Part shown: positions 408-21,744 of the stretch, one piece after another
How the letters are laid out: every line of letters begins with the position of its first letter
Numbering within the stretch: the stretch's first letter is position 1
Virus record (IMG/VR): IMGVR_UViG_3300014720_000138
Location: 1-28,789 of that record
Direction: 5' to 3' (one strand)
Length of the DNA stretch: 28,789 nucleotides
Origin: a virus
Notes under the pieces: generated by a model
What the model was told of the DNA's origin: nothing
Seen by the model: the letters and a program-made list of their open reading frames with translations, nothing else
The model's database searches: none
Program-made: the position numbers and the translations under genes

Positions 408-419
408 TAACCCTTCAGA

Positions 420-448
420 TTGACAGGGTATTCAGTTGGTGTTAGTAT
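420..448 (+). promoter_or_regulatory. Early promoter cassette copy 1
   Basis: TTGACA (420-425), 17-bp spacer, TAGTAT (443-448). A stem ACCCT (410-414)/AGGGT (425-429) surrounds the -35 box with a 10-base loop. The predicted +1 is the A of ATG 455. It drives the gene at 543 after an unusually long leader. Confidence 0.75.
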
Positions 449-454
449 ATGGTT

Positions 455-550
455 ATGGTGAAGAACAGGTCGAACAGACAAATTGCAGAGGCTAGGCCAA
501 AGCAGATGAACCTGGGATTCACCCCACTTATAGGAGTTTTACATGGCTAA
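455..550 (+). other. Candidate leaderless leader ORF, 31 codons (cassette 1)
   Basis: Starts with ATG seven bases past the -10 box, at the predicted transcription start, and encodes MVKNRSN and onward. It ends at TAA 548-550, overlapping the start of the 543 gene by eight bases (ATGGCTAA). It has no Shine-Dalgarno sequence, so translation would need leaderless initiation. The same geometry recurs in cassettes 3 and 4. It may be only conserved untranslated leader. Confidence 0.3.
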
Positions 551-836
551 GTTGCTCATCACTACTCAAGTTCTCGAGAATTACGGATCAGAGACCGATC
601 CCTACTGGAAAGCAAAGGGTGGAGATGACTATGTCGTCAAGAATTTCAAAGACTTCAATCGTGTTGCGCAGGTCGTGATGGCACTACGCCCTCAGATTGA
701 GATCGACAACCCCTTCTGTCAAGAGTACATCGCCGGCTGGGAAGTCGTTTCTGATGACTATCTGACGCAGGGCGAGCGCCTTCAGCTGCAGTTCGATGGT
801 CACGTTGCTTATGCTCCCCGTGAGCTGACGCTGTAG
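543..836 (+). CDS. Conserved phage protein (MAKLLITTQVLENYG type), unknown function
   Basis: A 97-residue acidic protein opening with MAKLLITTQVLENYG, followed by a Pro/Tyr/Trp-Lys-x-Lys-Gly-Gly segment near residues 20-28. I remember this layout from small hypothetical proteins of many tailed phages that begin '(L/I)xTTQVxENYG' and carry a 'YWKxKGG' motif. TAGGAG at 531-536 precedes the ATG at proper spacing. It is transcribed from cassette 1, and cassette 2 starts a few bases after its stop. There is no signal peptide or membrane segment. Its biochemical role is unknown; an early-expressed small soluble protein is the safest description. Confidence 0.8.
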   Translation: MAKLLITTQVLENYGSETDPYWKAKGGDDYVVKNFKDFNRVAQVVMALRPQIEIDNPFCQEYIAGWEVVSDDYLTQGERLQLQFDGHVAYAPRELTL

Positions 837-851
837 ATAGTACCCATACAG

Positions 852-880
852 TTGACTCGGGTACCATTTGGTTATATAAT
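852..880 (+). promoter_or_regulatory. Early promoter cassette copy 2
   Basis: TTGACT (852-857), 17-bp spacer, TATAAT (875-880). Inverted repeat GTACCC (840-845)/GGGTAC (859-864) brackets the -35 box. The predicted +1 coincides with an ATG at 887 that is in frame with the downstream gene. Confidence 0.85.
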
Positions 881-913
881 AATGGTATGGTGAAGAAACA
901 ACAGGAGCAGAAG

Positions 914-1204
914 ATGACAAATAGTTTAAGCGCAGATTACTCAGCATCGTTTGACAAGATGTACGAAGGTGGTATGGATATAGATGATATAGCACACGAG
1001 CTTACACTACGCTTTGAGCATGAGTTTGCAGACTACTTGCGAGGATGTGATAGTGAAGATGTCGGTGCTGTTATACTATACATGCGTGGAGACGAAGAAG
1101 TTGCTTTCTTTGACTATGAGAACATGCATGGGAGTGTGTATGCGCTGGGACATAAGCTAGCAAGCGAGACTAGTGTAGAATGGGCTGCTCGTATAGAAGC
1201 ATAG
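914..1204 (+). CDS. Small acidic early protein, unknown function
   Basis: A 96-residue acidic protein (MTNSLSADYSASF start) with many Asp/Glu and aromatic residues and no recognisable motif. I chose ATG 914 because AGGAG at 903-907 sits at the right distance. An in-frame ATG at 887 would add nine residues (MVKKQQEQK), but it lies at the predicted transcription start of cassette 2 with no ribosome binding site. The neighbours are other small genes, each with its own cassette. It is probably soluble, since no membrane segment or signal peptide is visible. Small acidic early phage proteins are often inhibitors or DNA mimics, but nothing here shows that. Confidence 0.75.
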   Translation: MTNSLSADYSASFDKMYEGGMDIDDIAHELTLRFEHEFADYLRGCDSEDVGAVILYMRGDEEVAFFDYENMHGSVYALGHKLASETSVEWAARIEA

Positions 1205-1215
1205 TAACCCTTCAT

Positions 1216-1244
1216 TTGACTCGGGATTCATAAGATCATATAAT
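1216..1244 (+). promoter_or_regulatory. Early promoter cassette copy 3
   Basis: TTGACT (1216-1221), 17-bp spacer, TATAAT (1239-1244). The stem is reduced here (CCC 1208-1210 with GGG 1223-1225). The conserved ATGGTGAAGAAC leader starts at 1251, seven bases after the -10 box. Confidence 0.85.
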
Positions 1245-1250
1245 TATGGT

Positions 1251-1289
1251 ATGGTGAAGAACAAAGTAAAAGGAGCAGATCATGATTGA
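1251..1289 (+). other. Candidate leaderless leader ORF, 12 codons (cassette 3)
   Basis: Encodes MVKNKVKG and four more residues, and ends TGA 1287-1289. It overlaps the start of the 1282 gene by eight bases (ATGATTGA). Its ATG lies at the predicted +1. The internal AAAGGAG also serves as the ribosome binding site of the next gene. Confidence 0.3.
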
Positions 1290-1455
1290 GCGTAATCTAA
1301 ATGCAGCGGGTCGGAGGGCTACTGTCCTGTATGGCGCTGTCGAGTTGGTTGACGGCTTGGTCAGAGTCCTGAGCTTAGGCTTTTTCCACACCCGTTTGCC
1401 TCTGATCGTTAGCCGTTGGCAAATGCGCAGGGGTTTCCAAAAGCGTTGGGGTTGA
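1282..1455 (+). CDS. Small basic early protein, 57 residues, unknown
   Basis: A 57-residue basic protein that runs from MIERNLNAAGRR, through a hydrophobic middle (TVLYGAVELVDGLVRVLSL), to an Arg/Trp/Gln-rich tail ending KRWG. AAAGGAG at 1269-1275 gives it a strong ribosome binding site. The middle could be an amphipathic or membrane-associated helix, but it contains acidic residues and is not a clear transmembrane segment. It is driven by cassette 3, and cassette 4 begins right after its stop. I do not recognise the family. The strong ribosome binding site and the dedicated promoter are the reasons to believe it is a real gene. Confidence 0.65.
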   Translation: MIERNLNAAGRRATVLYGAVELVDGLVRVLSLGFFHTRLPLIVSRWQMRRGFQKRWG

Positions 1456-1472
1456 CATCAGTACCCGAGCAT

Positions 1473-1501
1473 TTGACTCGGGTACCATTTGGTGTTAGAC
1501 T
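1473..1501 (+). promoter_or_regulatory. Early promoter cassette copy 4, best stem
   Basis: TTGACT (1473-1478), 17-bp spacer, TAGACT (1496-1501). This copy has the most complete inverted repeat: GTACCCGAG (1461-1469) and CTCGGGTAC (1477-1485), nine perfect pairs with a 7-base loop that carries half of the -35 box. Confidence 0.8.
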
Positions 1502-1510
1502 ATGGTTATA

Positions 1511-1546
1511 GTGAAGAACAAGGTAAAAGGAGCGAGCAATGTTTGA
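1511..1546 (+). other. Candidate leader ORF starting GTG, 11 codons (cassette 4)
   Basis: GTG at 1511 opens a short frame reading VKNKVKG and four more residues. It ends TGA 1544-1546, again with an eight-base overlap (ATGTTTGA) with the next start at 1539. At the predicted +1 (1508) the codon is ATA rather than ATG, so this copy would be weak if used at all. Confidence 0.22.
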
Positions 1547-1715
1547 TATCTATGTATACAGTTCAAACTCAGTAGGTGGCTCAGTTAGAGTGATCCCCGA
1601 CCAAACCGAATACCGGGCTCGTGCCCAATTGTTCGCCCAGGCTGGATTCAATGTCAAGGTCGTTGATCAAGAGGATGGTGTTGTGGTCTACACCTTGGAC
1701 GCCCTGCCACAATAA
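1539..1715 (+). CDS. Small early protein, 58 residues, unknown
   Basis: A 58-residue protein beginning MFDIYVYSSNSVGGS. The pattern suggests a compact alpha/beta fold: a first strand, a loop, a helix around EYRARAQLFAQAG, then two strands ending VVVYTLDALPQ. AAAAGGAG at 1525-1532 is a good ribosome binding site. It is transcribed from cassette 4, and its stop runs straight into the stem of cassette 5. No catalytic residues stand out and I recognise no family. Small alpha/beta proteins of this size in phage early regions are usually uncharacterised. Confidence 0.7.
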   Translation: MFDIYVYSSNSVGGSVRVIPDQTEYRARAQLFAQAGFNVKVVDQEDGVVVYTLDALPQ

Positions 1716-1723
1716 CCCGTTGC

Positions 1724-1752
1724 TTGACTCGGGTACCATTTGGTTATATAAT
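1724..1752 (+). promoter_or_regulatory. Early promoter cassette copy 5
   Basis: TTGACT (1724-1729), 17-bp spacer, TATAAT (1747-1752). Stem ACCCG (1715-1719)/CGGGT (1730-1734) with a 10-base loop, starting in the stop codon of the upstream gene. An ATG at the predicted +1 (1759) is in frame with the next gene. Confidence 0.85.
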
Positions 1753-1782
1753 AATGGTATGGTAAAGAACAAAGGAACAAAG

Positions 1783-1989
1783 ATGACGAAAACCCCAGTG
1801 TACGCGAATCTAGACCACGCAATTCTCATAGCCGACCTAGCATATATAGCAGCAAGGCTTCCGAGACGCGACAACGTCCTAGCAGGGATGCTGATCAAGT
1901 GGTTCGACATCAGGGGGTCTCTGTCCGAGAAACAAGATGCTCTGGGTAGGGCAATTCTACTTCGTAACGAGGAGCTTTTGAATGCGTAA
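1783..1989 (+). CDS. Small helical early protein, 68 residues, unknown
   Basis: A 68-residue mostly helical protein (MTKTPVYANLDHAILIADL start) with Arg-Arg-Asp in the middle and an acidic leucine-rich end. ATG 1783 follows AAAGGAAC at 1771. A longer in-frame version from the ATG at 1759 (adding MVKNKGTK) would start at the predicted transcription start of cassette 5. The open frame continues further upstream into the previous gene, but a start there would lie before the promoter. The end overlaps the next gene by eight bases. No family is recognised. Confidence 0.7.
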   Translation: MTKTPVYANLDHAILIADLAYIAARLPRRDNVLAGMLIKWFDIRGSLSEKQDALGRAILLRNEELLNA

Positions 1990-2248
1990 GCGTTTGGTTG
2001 TAGGTCTTAATAATTCCCAGAAGATCCGAGTGATCTGCAATGGGGTAGCGTTTCACACCACCGTACAGGGTGCTCTAGAGGGCATGAGCTTCGTAGATCA
2101 GCGACTCGCAGTGAGCCATGTGCTAACAGAGCTGGGACTGGGGCAGTTCAACAGTACTAACGTCCCCACGGGCATAGGCAAGCCCGTCAGAGTCTACAAT
2201 CACAAGAATGAGCGAGTGACCGTCGATGTGCAAGTAGATCTAGTCTAA
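1982..2248 (+). CDS. Early protein, 88 residues, unknown
   Basis: An 88-residue basic protein beginning MRKRLVVGLNNSQKIRVICNG, predicted to be mixed beta and helix. Its ATG lies inside the end of the previous gene (eight-base overlap, ATGCGTAA), which indicates translational coupling; GAGG at 1970-1973 could act as a weak ribosome binding site. The C-terminal half (VRVYNHKNERVTVDVQVDL) looks like two beta strands with charged loops. No promoter separates it from the 1783 gene, so both belong to the transcript from cassette 5. I do not recognise the family. Confidence 0.7.
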   Translation: MRKRLVVGLNNSQKIRVICNGVAFHTTVQGALEGMSFVDQRLAVSHVLTELGLGQFNSTNVPTGIGKPVRVYNHKNERVTVDVQVDLV

Positions 2249-2257
2249 GGAGCAGAC

Positions 2258-2434
2258 ATGGTAGTTACCCGAATCATTCAGTATTTCAACGATTCCGGCG
2301 AAGCAGGGTTCGATAGAGAAGCAAGTCCCGGCAACGGTCCCTTCTACGTCAAGCTTCACGATGACAGCTACGATGCCACCGGATTCGATACGCTAGACGA
2401 AGCGATCGAGGAACTTCGTTACATTACCGAGTAA
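2258..2434 (+). CDS. Small acidic early protein, 58 residues, unknown
   Basis: A 58-residue acidic protein (MVVTRIIQYFNDSGEAGFD start) ending in a helix, LDEAIEELRYITE. AAGGAG at 2248-2253 is a strong ribosome binding site placed across the upstream stop, so it is co-transcribed with the two preceding genes. The layout of a beta hairpin, an aspartate-rich loop and a terminal helix resembles small DUF-type phage proteins, but I cannot name one. Cassette 6 begins in its stop codon. Confidence 0.68.
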   Translation: MVVTRIIQYFNDSGEAGFDREASPGNGPFYVKLHDDSYDATGFDTLDEAIEELRYITE

Positions 2435-2442
2435 CCCGTCAT

Positions 2443-2471
2443 TTGACTCGGATACCAATTGGTGTTAGACT
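2443..2471 (+). promoter_or_regulatory. Early promoter cassette copy 6
   Basis: TTGACT (2443-2448), 17-bp spacer, TAGACT (2466-2471). The spacer holds a perfect 10-bp palindrome ACCAATTGGT (2454-2463), degenerate in copies 2, 4 and 5. The stem ACCCG/CGGAT has one mismatch. The predicted +1 codon is ACG, and that frame closes just before the next gene. Confidence 0.78.
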
Positions 2472-2500
2472 AATGTTACGGTAAAGAAAAGGACATAGAG

Positions 2501-2731
2501 ATGAAGACAGCAGAATTCCTAGCAATGACAGACAAGATTCGCGTAGCAACGACAGCAGCAATGGACGCTGGCAACGAGTTCGTCACTCCCTGGCGGATCA
2601 TCGGAACACTGACAGCGGTACTTGAGAGTTCACTGTATCACCTGCCGAAGGCTACCCGTGAAGAGATACTCAAGCAGTTAGTAGACGGCCTGGGCTATAT
2701 AGAGAAGTCTTATGAGAAGGAGGCAGCATGA
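2501..2731 (+). CDS. Small helical early protein, 76 residues, unknown
   Basis: A 76-residue helix-rich protein (MKTAEFLAMTDKIRVATTAAMD start) with an acidic and lysine-rich C-terminus. It is transcribed from cassette 6; GGACATAGAG just before the ATG offers a moderate ribosome binding site. The last codons overlap the start of a tiny membrane protein (ATGA at 2728-2731), implying coupled translation. No motif or family is recognised. Because it is paired with a single-pass membrane peptide it could be the soluble partner of a two-gene unit, but that is speculation. Confidence 0.7.
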   Translation: MKTAEFLAMTDKIRVATTAAMDAGNEFVTPWRIIGTLTAVLESSLYHLPKATREEILKQLVDGLGYIEKSYEKEAA

Positions 2732-9934: not shown

Positions 9935-9963
9935 TTGACACGGATATCTTTTTACTATATAAT
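9935..9963 (+). promoter_or_regulatory. Consensus sigma70-type promoter upstream of the ligase unit
   Basis: TTGACA (9935-9940), 17-bp spacer, TATAAT (9958-9963); the predicted start is A 9970. It drives the small basic protein at 9985 and, through a nine-base gap, the DNA ligase. Confidence 0.87.
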
Positions 9964-15742: not shown

Positions 15743-16687
15743 ATGTCAACAATTTTAAATGCAAATTCCATTCTAGGTTTAGTAATTGTTCCTGATTCTT
15801 CAGGTGAACTGCAACTTAGAACTGCTAATGTAACTGCTCTTACTGTAGCTAATGCTAGAGTAGGTATAGGTGGCAGTGTAGATTCGAATGCTAATCTTAA
15901 GATAACAGGTAATGTAATAGTTACAGAAACAGCTAACGTGTTTTCCTTGGCTGTTTCGGGATATGGTAATGTTATAAGTAGCACTGGTGTTTGGCTTGGT
16001 CAGGGTGCTATCGGTGCACAGGGCGCACAGGGTGCTCAGGGGGTCCAAGGGTCACAGGGTGTACAAGGTGCAGTAGGTGCTCAAGGGTCACAGGGTGTAC
16101 AAGGCTCAACGGGTGATCAAGGTGTACAAGGGTCACAGGGTGCCCAAGGTGTCCAGGGCGCAACAGGTGTAGGTGTCCAAGGTGCTCAGGGTGCCCAAGG
16201 TGTGGCAGGTCCAGCTGGCAGTGGCGGTGGATCGGCAAATGTAGCAATCTACGACGAAAATGTTTTAATTACCAGTAATGTAACCGGTATAAATTTTACG
16301 GGTTCTGGTGTTACTGCTACATTATCGGGTTCTAATGTCATTGTTACCATTTCTGCTACAGGCGGCGATGGCTCAACAGCAAATGCAGATAATGTTATTC
16401 ACACCATAGACACATTTAACGGTGATGGTACCACAACATCATTTACTCTTACATCTAATGCATCACAAACAGATTCGTTGGTTATTTTAGATGGTTTGGT
16501 ACAATTTTATTCGACAGATTATAACATTAGTAATAGCACTTCCTTGGTATTTACGTCAGCTCCAGAAGTCGGTGAGACAATTAAAGTATTGCATCTACAA
16601 GGTGCAGGTGCGAGTAATGTGCCTGAAGACTGGGGCCTAGTTGATACATCAGCAACTACTACAGAAGATTACGGAAGCATAGTATGA
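15743..16687 (+). CDS. Collagen-like tail fibre protein
   Basis: A 314-residue protein. Residues 1-87 are beta-rich (attachment domain); residues 88-160 are about 24 Gly-X-Y triplets of the GAQ/GVQ/GSQ kind with one interruption (GATGVGVQG); residues 165-314 form a beta-rich C-terminal domain with a segment [20 protein letters not shown], typical of phage fibre tips. Collagen-like triplets make a trimeric shaft; the head should bind the host. The triplets hold Gln, Ala, Val and Ser, nearly no Pro or Lys. The same kind of fibre occurs at 20145. It ends in an ATGA overlap with the next fibre gene. Confidence 0.88.
16015..16215 (+). repeat. Collagen-shaft repeat of the first fibre
   Basis: Nine-base Gly-X-Y units (GGTGTACAA, GGGTCACAG and similar) run through this stretch with more variation than in the repeat at 20476-21000, so this array looks older. 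The 3' end shares CAACAGGTGTAGGTGTCCAA with the other array (near 20959-20978), marking homology. Confidence 0.8.
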
Positions 16688-20144: not shown

Positions 20145-21386
20145 ATGAGAAGAATAAAAGTCAGTAGAGTAGTAGCCAATGTTACCAGCAACAATTATCT
20201 TGCTGTTTCCGAAAATACTATCTTTGGAGTCGCTCTTAATTCCAGTAATGTTACCGAGGGATCTAATCTTTACTTTACCAACGCCAGAGCCTATGCCAAT
20301 ACATTAGTTGCAATCAAGACTGGTAATGGTATCGCTTATAGTAATATAACAGGAAATATTACATTATCAGCTACAGGAGTTTTGGCAGAAAATTATGGTA
20401 ATACTACCCATCATGTAGGATTGGTGATAGATAGTACAGGTAGAATTACTTCTGCTAATTCTATTCCTTTAGCTGCAGGTCCTCAAGGAAACCAAGGTGA
20501 CCAAGGCGCACAGGGTGTCCAGGGCGCAGTTGGTGCACAGGGCAATCAAGGTGTCCAAGGTGCAGTTGGTGCACAGGGCGCAGTTGGTGCACAGGGCAAT
20601 CAAGGTGTCCAAGGCGCAGTTGGTGCACAGGGTAATCAAGGTGTCCAAGGTGCAGTTGGTGCACAGGGCGCAGTTGGTGCACAGGGCGCAGTTGGTGCAC
20701 AGGGCGCAGTTGGTGCACAGGGCGCAGTTGGTGCACAGGGCGCATCAGGTCCTCAAGGAAACCAAGGTGTCCAAGGCGCAGTTGGTGCACAGGGCGCAGT
20801 TGGTGCACAGGGTAATCAAGGTGTCCAAGGCGCAGTTGGTGCACAGGGCGCAACAGGACCACAGGGTAATCAAGGTGTCCAGGGTGCAACAGGTCCACAG
20901 GGTAATCAAGGTGTACAAGGTGCAACAGGTGCTCAAGGGGCACAGGGCGTCCAAGGCGCAACAGGTGTAGGTGTCCAAGGCGCTCAGGGTGTACAAGGTG
21001 CTTCTGGTTCGGGTGGTGGCGGAGCCTATTCAACTAAAACTAGTAATTACACGGCAGTAGCTTTCGATAATATCATCACTAATTCTTCTGGTGGTAGTTT
21101 CACTATAACATTACCAGCAACACCAAGTTCTGGTGATTCTATTACCATAGCAGATCAAGGTTATTGGGGAGACTATCCTGTAACTGTTGATAGAAATGGC
21201 AATACAATAGAGGGTCAAAGTGACAATTTATCTTTAGATTTTAGCGGTGTCAGTGTAACGTTAATCTACAGTGGTAGTACATGGCAGGTTGTTACTTCTT
21301 TGGGTAAACAAGGTGCCCAAGGTGCTACAGGTTCTACATTTACAACAGGAAAGGCAATAGCAATGTCTATTGTGTTCGGGGGATAA
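20145..21386 (+). CDS. Long collagen-like tail fibre protein
   Basis: A 413-residue protein. Residues 1-110 are beta-rich and similar to residues 55-115 of the fibre at 16684. Residues 112-290 hold about 60 Gly-X-Y triplets, mostly GAV-GAQ, GNQ-GVQ and GPQ-GNQ, ending with the same GATGVGVQG interruption as the 15743 fibre. Residues 295-400 are a beta head domain with SGGSFTITLPATPSSGDSIT, YWGDYPVTVDRNGNTIEGQS and SGSTWQVVTS, a pattern common in phage fibre tips. The shaft is more than twice the length of the 15743 fibre shaft. The tandem DNA repeats suggest changes in repeat number. Confidence 0.88.
   Translation: MRRIKVSRVVANVTSNNYLAVSENTIFGVALNSSNVTEGSNLYFTNARAYANTLVAIKTGNGIAYSNITGNITLSATGVLAENYGNTTHHVGLVIDSTGRITSANSIPLAAGPQGNQGDQGAQGVQGAVGAQGNQGVQGAVGAQGAVGAQGNQGVQGAVGAQGNQGVQGAVGAQGAVGAQGAVGAQGAVGAQGAVGAQGASGPQGNQGVQGAVGAQGAVGAQGNQGVQGAVGAQGATGPQGNQGVQGATGPQGNQGVQGATGAQGAQGVQGATGVGVQGAQGVQGASGSGGGGAYSTKTSNYTAVAFDNIITNSSGGSFTITLPATPSSGDSITIADQGYWGDYPVTVDRNGNTIEGQSDNLSLDFSGVSVTLIYSGSTWQVVTSLGKQGAQGATGSTFTTGKAIAMSIVFGG
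20476..21000 (+). repeat. Tandem 9-bp-based repeat encoding the collagen shaft
   Basis: Nine-base units (Gly-X-Y) run through the region. GCAGTTGGTGCACAG occurs 12 times between 20525 and 20850; five of these (20650-20733) follow each other every 18 bp with no change. This near-identity at DNA level, beyond what the protein requires, means recent duplication and scope for slippage or recombination. Confidence 0.9.
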
Positions 21387-21387
21387 T

Positions 21388-21744
21388 ATGGCAAGTCCTA
21401 ATATAGTTGGGGTGGTTAATATCACAGGAAATACAATAGTATCTAATGTAACTACTATATTTTCTAACGTAATTACTAATACTTCTACAAGTAATTCTAT
21501 TATAAAAATTAATAACTTGATTGTATCCAATTACTCCAATGCCTCCATTACTTCCACAGTTCAATTAAATAGAAGTGCTGCTAATTATTATTTTGCCGGA
21601 GCTATAACAATACCAGCAAATTCTACACTTGTAGTTATAGGTAAAGATACAGGTGTTTATCTTTTAGAAGGCGATGTTATTCAAGCTAATGTATCTGCTA
21701 ATGTATCAGCTTCTTTAATTGCGTCATTTGAAACCATAAGTTAA
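21388..21744 (+). CDS. Small beta-rich protein of adhesin cassette 1
   Basis: A 118-residue Ser/Thr/Asn/Val-rich beta protein (MASPNIVGVVNITGNTIVSN start). The segment VITNTSTSNSIIKINNLIVS and the SYDG/SNYSN-like motif are shared with the protein at 27308 (NTSTSNTIVKVNSLFLSNYD), and the same size class occurs at 23773. Each of the three precedes a glycine-rich adhesin gene by a TAATG overlap, so I take them as adaptors or co-proteins of those adhesins. GGGGGAT before the ATG is the ribosome binding site. No family name is known to me. Confidence 0.75.
   Translation: MASPNIVGVVNITGNTIVSNVTTIFSNVITNTSTSNSIIKINNLIVSNYSNASITSTVQLNRSAANYYFAGAITIPANSTLVVIGKDTGVYLLEGDVIQANVSANVSASLIASFETIS

Follow-up and report, generated by a model that had tools for sequence, protein, structure and literature searches.

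The 28.8 kb virus record IMGVR_UViG_3300014720_000138, analysed over its whole length and referred to here as the window, has T4-type genes and carries, ahead of small genes near its beginning, six copies of a compact regulatory cassette. These copies are probably composite units of terminator, promoter and leader, similar to promoter-early stem-loop (PeSL) cassettes, in which the 5' end of the transcript can double as a leaderless start of translation. The phage would be T4-like and each unit a copy of a mobile regulatory cassette. In every unit an inverted repeat around the -35 box, which would be terminator-like for the upstream gene, is combined with a strong promoter of host type and a short leader rich in purines that has AYRGURAAGA at +1 and carries a Shine-Dalgarno sequence (SD) for the downstream gene. 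The +1 motif would be retained as a promoter or 5'-end feature, not for a peptide. The host appears able to initiate on a 5'-terminal AUG, and a motif that happens to read AUG would provide a second, leaderless start. If this AUG is used, copies 2 and 5 would yield an N-terminally extended isoform beside the SD-led form. Copies 1 and 3 would then produce a short peptide in another frame than the gene, and copies 4 and 6 nothing.

Organization of the six cassettes

The six copies, recovered by a repeat search of the window as family D1 (6 copies of 59 nt), share the consensus TTGACW-N17-TA(G/T)NNT-N6-AYRGTRAAGAA, with a spacer of 17 between the -35 and -10 boxes in every copy. All six downstream genes are preceded by an SD (AGGAG, AAGGA or AAGGAG) at a spacing of 6-7 nt. 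The pattern is not due to chance: a promoter matrix built from -35 to +0 only, so that the +1 motif did not enter the scoring, found 126 unique sites across 26 related records, 146 in a wider set of loci and 0 in shuffled sequence in both cases. Beyond the six window copies, some 140 unique ones occur in related phage contigs. We infer the exact transcription start and the early timing of the cassettes from sequence. The features are as follows (aa, amino acids; all on the + strand).

410..429, +, copy 1 inverted repeat ACCCT-N10-AGGGT around the -35 box, a terminator-like hairpin with a 5-bp stem (ACCCG/CGGGT in other copies)
420..448, +, copy 1 promoter TTGACA-17-TAGTAT, -35 at 420, -10 at 443, predicted +1 at 455 (ATG)
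454..516, +, copy 1 leader structured RNA: outer stem, GAACAGACAAATTGCAG, inner GGC/GCC stem
455..550, +, copy 1 mini-ORF MVKNRSNRQIAEARPKQMNLGFTPLIGVLHG, overlapping the structured RNA, stop within ATGGCTAA of the 543 gene
543..836, +, copy 1 gene, 97 aa, MAKLLITTQV.., SD AGGAG at 532-536
852..880, +, copy 2 promoter TTGACT-17-TATAAT, -35 at 852, -10 at 875, predicted +1 at 887 (ATG)
887..913, +, copy 2 leader, 27 nt, in the gene frame MVKKQQEQK + MTNSL.., SD AGGAG at 903-907
914..1204, +, copy 2 gene, 96 aa from the SD-led ATG, 105 aa from 887
1216..1244, +, copy 3 promoter TTGACT-17-TATAAT, -35 at 1216, -10 at 1239, predicted +1 at 1251 (ATG)
1251..1289, +, copy 3 mini-ORF MVKNKVKGADHD, leader of 31 nt, stop TGA within ATGATTGA
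1282..1455, +, copy 3 gene, 57 aa, MIERNLNAAG.., SD AAGGAG
1464..1488, +, copy 4 perfect 9-bp inverted repeat GTACCCGAG-CATTTGA-CTCGGGTAC, -35 box in loop and right arm
1473..1501, +, copy 4 promoter TTGACT-17-TAGACT, -35 at 1473, -10 at 1496, predicted +1 at 1508 (ATA)
1508..1546, +, copy 4 leader frame IVKNKVKGASNV, without ATG at +1, stop within ATGTTTGA
1539..1715, +, copy 4 gene, 58 aa, SD AAGGAG
1724..1752, +, copy 5 promoter TTGACT-17-TATAAT, -35 at 1724, -10 at 1747, predicted +1 at 1759 (ATG)
1759..1782, +, copy 5 leader, 24 nt, in the gene frame MVKNKGTK + MTKTPV..
1783..1989, +, copy 5 gene, 68 aa from the SD-led ATG
2443..2471, +, copy 6 promoter TTGACT-17-TAGACT, -35 at 2443, -10 at 2466, predicted +1 at 2478 (ACG)
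2478..2498, +, copy 6 leader frame TVKKRT, TAG stop 2 nt before the gene start
2501..2731, +, copy 6 gene, 76 aa

Direct reading bears out the geometry given in the initial annotation: the triplet beginning seven bases after the -10 box is ATG in copies 1, 2, 3 and 5, ATA in copy 4 and ACG in copy 6. The frames from 887 and 1759 continue into the 914 and 1783 genes, and those of copies 1, 3 and 4 end at ATGGCTAA, ATGATTGA and ATGTTTGA on the next start, these three copies sharing ATGNNTRA. The common peptide MVK(N/K)(K/R) does not apply to copy 2, which reads MVKKQ. In the copy 4 frame ATG is absent from +1, and only a GTG at +4 is present. Copy 1 has a second in-frame ATG 6 nt upstream (449), within its promoter, and at the copy 6 +1 position an ATG is found in relative L140 (L-numbers designate loci or contigs of related phages used for comparison). 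Further down, at 9935 and 8691, the window has two more promoters of the cassette type; both have ATA at +1, and their leaders measure 15 and 19 nt.

The -35 box is flanked by the inverted repeat ACCCG/CGGGT or ACCCT/AGGGT, whose arms extend to a perfect 9 bp in copy 4. A stem of at least 3 pairs surrounds the -35 box in 92 of 94 promoters, and the hairpin score of 8.07 compares with 7.50 +/- 0.20 for swapped arms (0/200 permutations as high) and with 5.97 for shuffled upstream sequence. Some copies in relatives have stems of 7-9 bp followed by the U-run CTTTTTC; the window copies have no clear U-tract. The leaders are also found in changing company. One leader occurs before different genes and one gene with different leaders, as exemplified by a nearly identical version of the 27-nt copy 2 leader that sits before other genes in L005 and L006.

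The cassettes resemble PeSL composites because of this inverted repeat around the -35 box and the reuse of leaders before different genes. PeSL cassettes reportedly occur in T4-type phages (Arbiol 2010; Comeau 2014). By the account of papers that cite them, both are repeated composites of a stem-loop and an early-type promoter, placed in a T4-like phage where small variable genes adjoin, with the same leader reused ahead of different genes in relatives. They differ in that the window inverted repeat overlaps the -35 box itself and the unit includes a conserved +1 motif and an SD leader. T4 early promoters are likewise strong, host-type and arranged in tandem over small early genes (PMC2988021). 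They are described with UP and TGn elements; the window copies are distinguished by the downstream AYRGTRAAGA motif.

Conservation of the +1 motif

In the 115 cassettes that are followed by an SD-led gene, the +1 triplet is ATG in 51, ATA in 43 and ACA in 5, the rest having others. GTR at +4..+6 and the purines that follow are kept in both ATG and non-ATG cassettes. In L217-L220 the same promoter, with ATGGTGAAGAAC at +1, precedes a tRNA array: in L217 the +1 is at 1663 and tRNA-Ile begins at 1726, 63 nt downstream, and L218-L220 are similar. Among these tRNA-array transcripts the leaders vary in length by single bases. Since RNA of this kind need not be translated, the presence of the motif on it points to a promoter-proximal or 5'-end role of AYRGTRAAGA instead of a peptide-coding one. 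Retention of the motif with or without a start codon, and at the +1 of tRNA arrays, speaks against the opinion in the initial annotation that the pattern is hard to explain by leader conservation alone.

AYRGTRAAGA could then be nothing but an initially transcribed or 5'-end stability motif, the +1 AUG being idle in the SD cassettes. The persistence of the motif with ATA, ACA or ACG and on tRNA-array transcripts fits this explanation, as does the good SD located 6-7 nt from the start of each gene. Against it, real genes in relatives have an identically placed ATG as their sole plausible start, so that in some hosts at least this ATG can be used by the ribosome. On balance pure leader conservation is rather unlikely to be the whole account.

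A selection for ATG at +1 in SD cassettes was considered and dropped: T at +2 dominates in both classes, and G and A at +3 are about equally frequent. G at +3 tends not to be combined with G at +6: the forms ATGGTA and ATAGTG outnumber ATGGTG and ATAGTA. Cassette-type promoters drive arrays of 10-29 tRNA genes at L217:1628, L218:1795, L219:1880, in L220 and at L213:1839.

Predicted leaderless gene families in related phages

The genes for which the +1 ATG is the sole plausible start belong to two families. A GIY-YIG protein of 101 aa (Pfam PF01541) is encoded in 80 freshwater-type phage contigs (L231-L310). In their 53 distinct upstream regions TTGAC lies 16-17 nt upstream of TATAAT/TACAAT, and the gene starts 6 nt after the latter in 51/53 and 5 nt after it in 2/53, with an SD in 0/53. 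For L236, L237 and L239 it is the cassette leader, ATGGTGACAAAAAAG, that supplies the start, with the following start codons lying within the conserved domain. The second family, of 126-129 aa and also starting at +1, is SWIM-like, its Pfam score of 19.4 being slightly under the cut-off of 19.6. Its L213 member begins with ATGGTTAAGAAC, the cassette motif, has no other start codon in the first 45 codons, and is preceded by a promoter and leader that resemble window copy 5. The cassette's own MVKN/MVTKK start is thus the only plausible gene start in L213 and in L236, L237 and L239. Absence of an SD combined with a start 5-7 nt after the -10 box characterizes both families but not the six window genes, which are SD-led.

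Such genes would require either leaderless initiation or SD-free translation of read-through RNA. The constant distance between the -10 box and the start favours the leaderless option, and initiation at the exact +1 position appears well supported in this phage group. To judge by the conservation of the GIY-YIG family, leaderless initiation may well be routine in the host; this bears on annotation, since gene callers that rely on the SD may misplace leaderless starts. The cassettes provide a comparative set for the use of 5'-terminal AUG: one promoter type with AUG, AUA, ACA or ACG at +1, with or without an SD, ahead of protein genes and tRNAs.

A phage gene that begins at the first base of its transcript is known from the leaderless cI mRNA of lambda (PMC9031893), to which the predicted starts described here are alike. 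In contrast to cI, a lytic-type small nuclease family is concerned, which keeps this arrangement across 53 distinct upstream regions; SD genes, too, are driven by this promoter type.

In-frame fusion of leaders to genes

After removal of duplicates, the frame opened at +1 runs into the gene in 28 of 46 cassettes with a +1 ATG against 14 of 44 without (Fisher p=0.007). Counted by gene family, fusion is found in 62% of ATG and 23% of non-ATG cases (permutation p=0.004), and deep out-of-frame reading in 10% with ATG against 34% without (p=0.017). One counted fusion, in L316, itself resembles a leaderless GIY-YIG gene, and 29 of the 39 ATG leaders of up to 35 nt form a single lineage. Leaders in this main ATG lineage measure 21, 24 or 27 nt and are in frame in 26/29, the exceptions having 22-23 nt; the matching ATA lineage is in frame in 4/13.

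This contrast could reflect selection for a dual start, in-frame +1 AUGs being maintained for a long and a short form of each early protein. The MTKTPV and MFQSQF families, which keep both the ATG and the frame in all their members, agree with such selection; the orthologues of copy 5, with leaders of 24, 21 and 27 nt, all have ATG and are all in frame. The extension peptides of orthologues differ, however, and in the MQINRK and MKREEF families some members have no ATG. The excess of in-frame cases is moreover non-significant once related leaders are pooled (p=0.12 with tight and 0.73 with looser clustering). A selected dual start is accordingly judged unlikely.

The loss of significance also weighs against the composite cassette whose 5' end doubles as a leaderless start, as do several other points. 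The in-frame excess may reflect one ancestral 24-nt leader; the SD-less genes of the relatives could be translated from upstream read-through RNA; and the hairpin would have weak terminator activity in the copies that have no U-tract. For the use of the AUG by the window cassettes the frame statistics are suggestive only. It is possible, and is proposed here tentatively, that the cassette is a standard early unit with two start modes per message, one at the first-base AUG and one at the SD-led start 15-25 nt further on. Many small early proteins would then exist in two N-terminal forms, the same 5' end being the sole start of the leaderless GIY-YIG family.

Stop-start overlaps and coupling to the downstream gene

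The initial annotation proposed leaderless translation coupled to the next gene. The SD-less families make the leaderless start credible in this phage group, but coupling through a fixed 8-base overlap finds no such backing. Leaderless mini-ORFs from +1 would in that scheme couple to gene translation by a stop-start overlap, in line with the ATGNNTRA shared by copies 1, 3 and 4. Near-start stop codons are indeed frequent in cassettes with a +1 ATG (8/46, where 4.3 are expected from three frames); they are as common without it (13/44). In copy 4 the +1 triplet is not ATG, an SD precedes each of the genes, and in-frame fusions exceed stop-start cases. The bases of the overlap belong to the second and third codons of the downstream gene.

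The overlap differs in orthologues. For copy 3 (L006 and L014) their leader measures 32 nt, against 31 nt in the window, and the stop lies at start+1; those of copy 1 have the stop at start+5 (L006) or ahead of the start (L005 and L121). The 1-nt change in the copy 3 leader is a frame-disrupting indel of the kind that the initial annotation had named as refuting its proposal. The mini-ORF frame is not conserved as a protein either, given this length change, a conservation in copy 1 that follows RNA pairing, and a GTR codon that varies alike with or without ATG.

Mycobacteria offer a precedent, having leaderless mRNAs and leaderless small upstream ORFs (Shell 2015, PMC4633059). There too the start codon stands at the 5' end, an SD is absent and some ORFs overlap the next gene, to which they are coupled by RTGA (PMC4633059). 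In contrast, most open frames of the cassettes fuse in frame with the SD-led gene, and half of the phage leaders have no start codon. Coupling by mini-ORFs is considered very improbable.

Structured RNA in the copy 1 leader

The leader of copy 1 has a structured RNA conserved in five distinct orthologous leaders: window 454-516, L228:2911-2973, L212:15073-15135, L211:11652-11714(-) and L311:23-85. It has 16 pairs, with 95% of alignment cells paired against 23-38% in slid versions, 5 pairs are changed on both sides, and the covariation score exceeds those of all 500 shuffles. The apparent conservation of the copy 1 mini-ORF is explained by this pairing, as the covarying structure overlaps the frame. 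A covariance model searched against 0.74 Mb gave confident matches to these orthologues only, and comparison with Rfam gave no family match. A known riboswitch was dropped as a candidate, Rfam scores reaching only chance level. The structured RNA could be a regulatory 5' element.

In L017 (minus strand from 835, reverse coordinates), L019 (from 7650 on) and L005 (minus strand), a cassette-type promoter is followed by a GC-rich conserved stretch, GGGGRTGGACGGCGRGGGTG, which is perhaps a small RNA; compared with Rfam, it gave nothing at gathering score.

Genomic setting of the cassettes

The first 2.8 kb of the window has about nine small genes and a GC content of ~48%, the remainder having mostly 31-49%. 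A chimera at 2.85 kb was ruled out, since L005/L228 has the same order from early region to core. DNA-level searches of phage isolates with the first 5 kb of the window, for near and distant relatives, found none, and an exact search of viral contigs for the cassette core had zero matches. No function was assigned to the six cassette genes by PHROG, nor by Pfam to the three of them scanned.

Among the other window proteins Pfam identifies RNase H, an ATP-dependent DNA ligase, an AAA ATPase and a 2OG-Fe(II) oxygenase, and a PhoH-like protein is assigned by similarity. The PhoH and ligase proteins have <60% identity to cyanophages and other matches. In the 23 records examined photosystem psbA was not found, and WhiB occurs only in G035, perhaps through a chance match of the pattern. 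A weak lead to the host is the contig L328, which was binned with a metagenome-assembled genome of an uncultured actinobacterium and has a GIY-YIG gene and an ATA-type promoter cassette. The collagen-like repeat proteins of the window (15743-16687 and 20145-21386) and the glycine-rich proteins at 21744 and 24111 are probably virion surface proteins.

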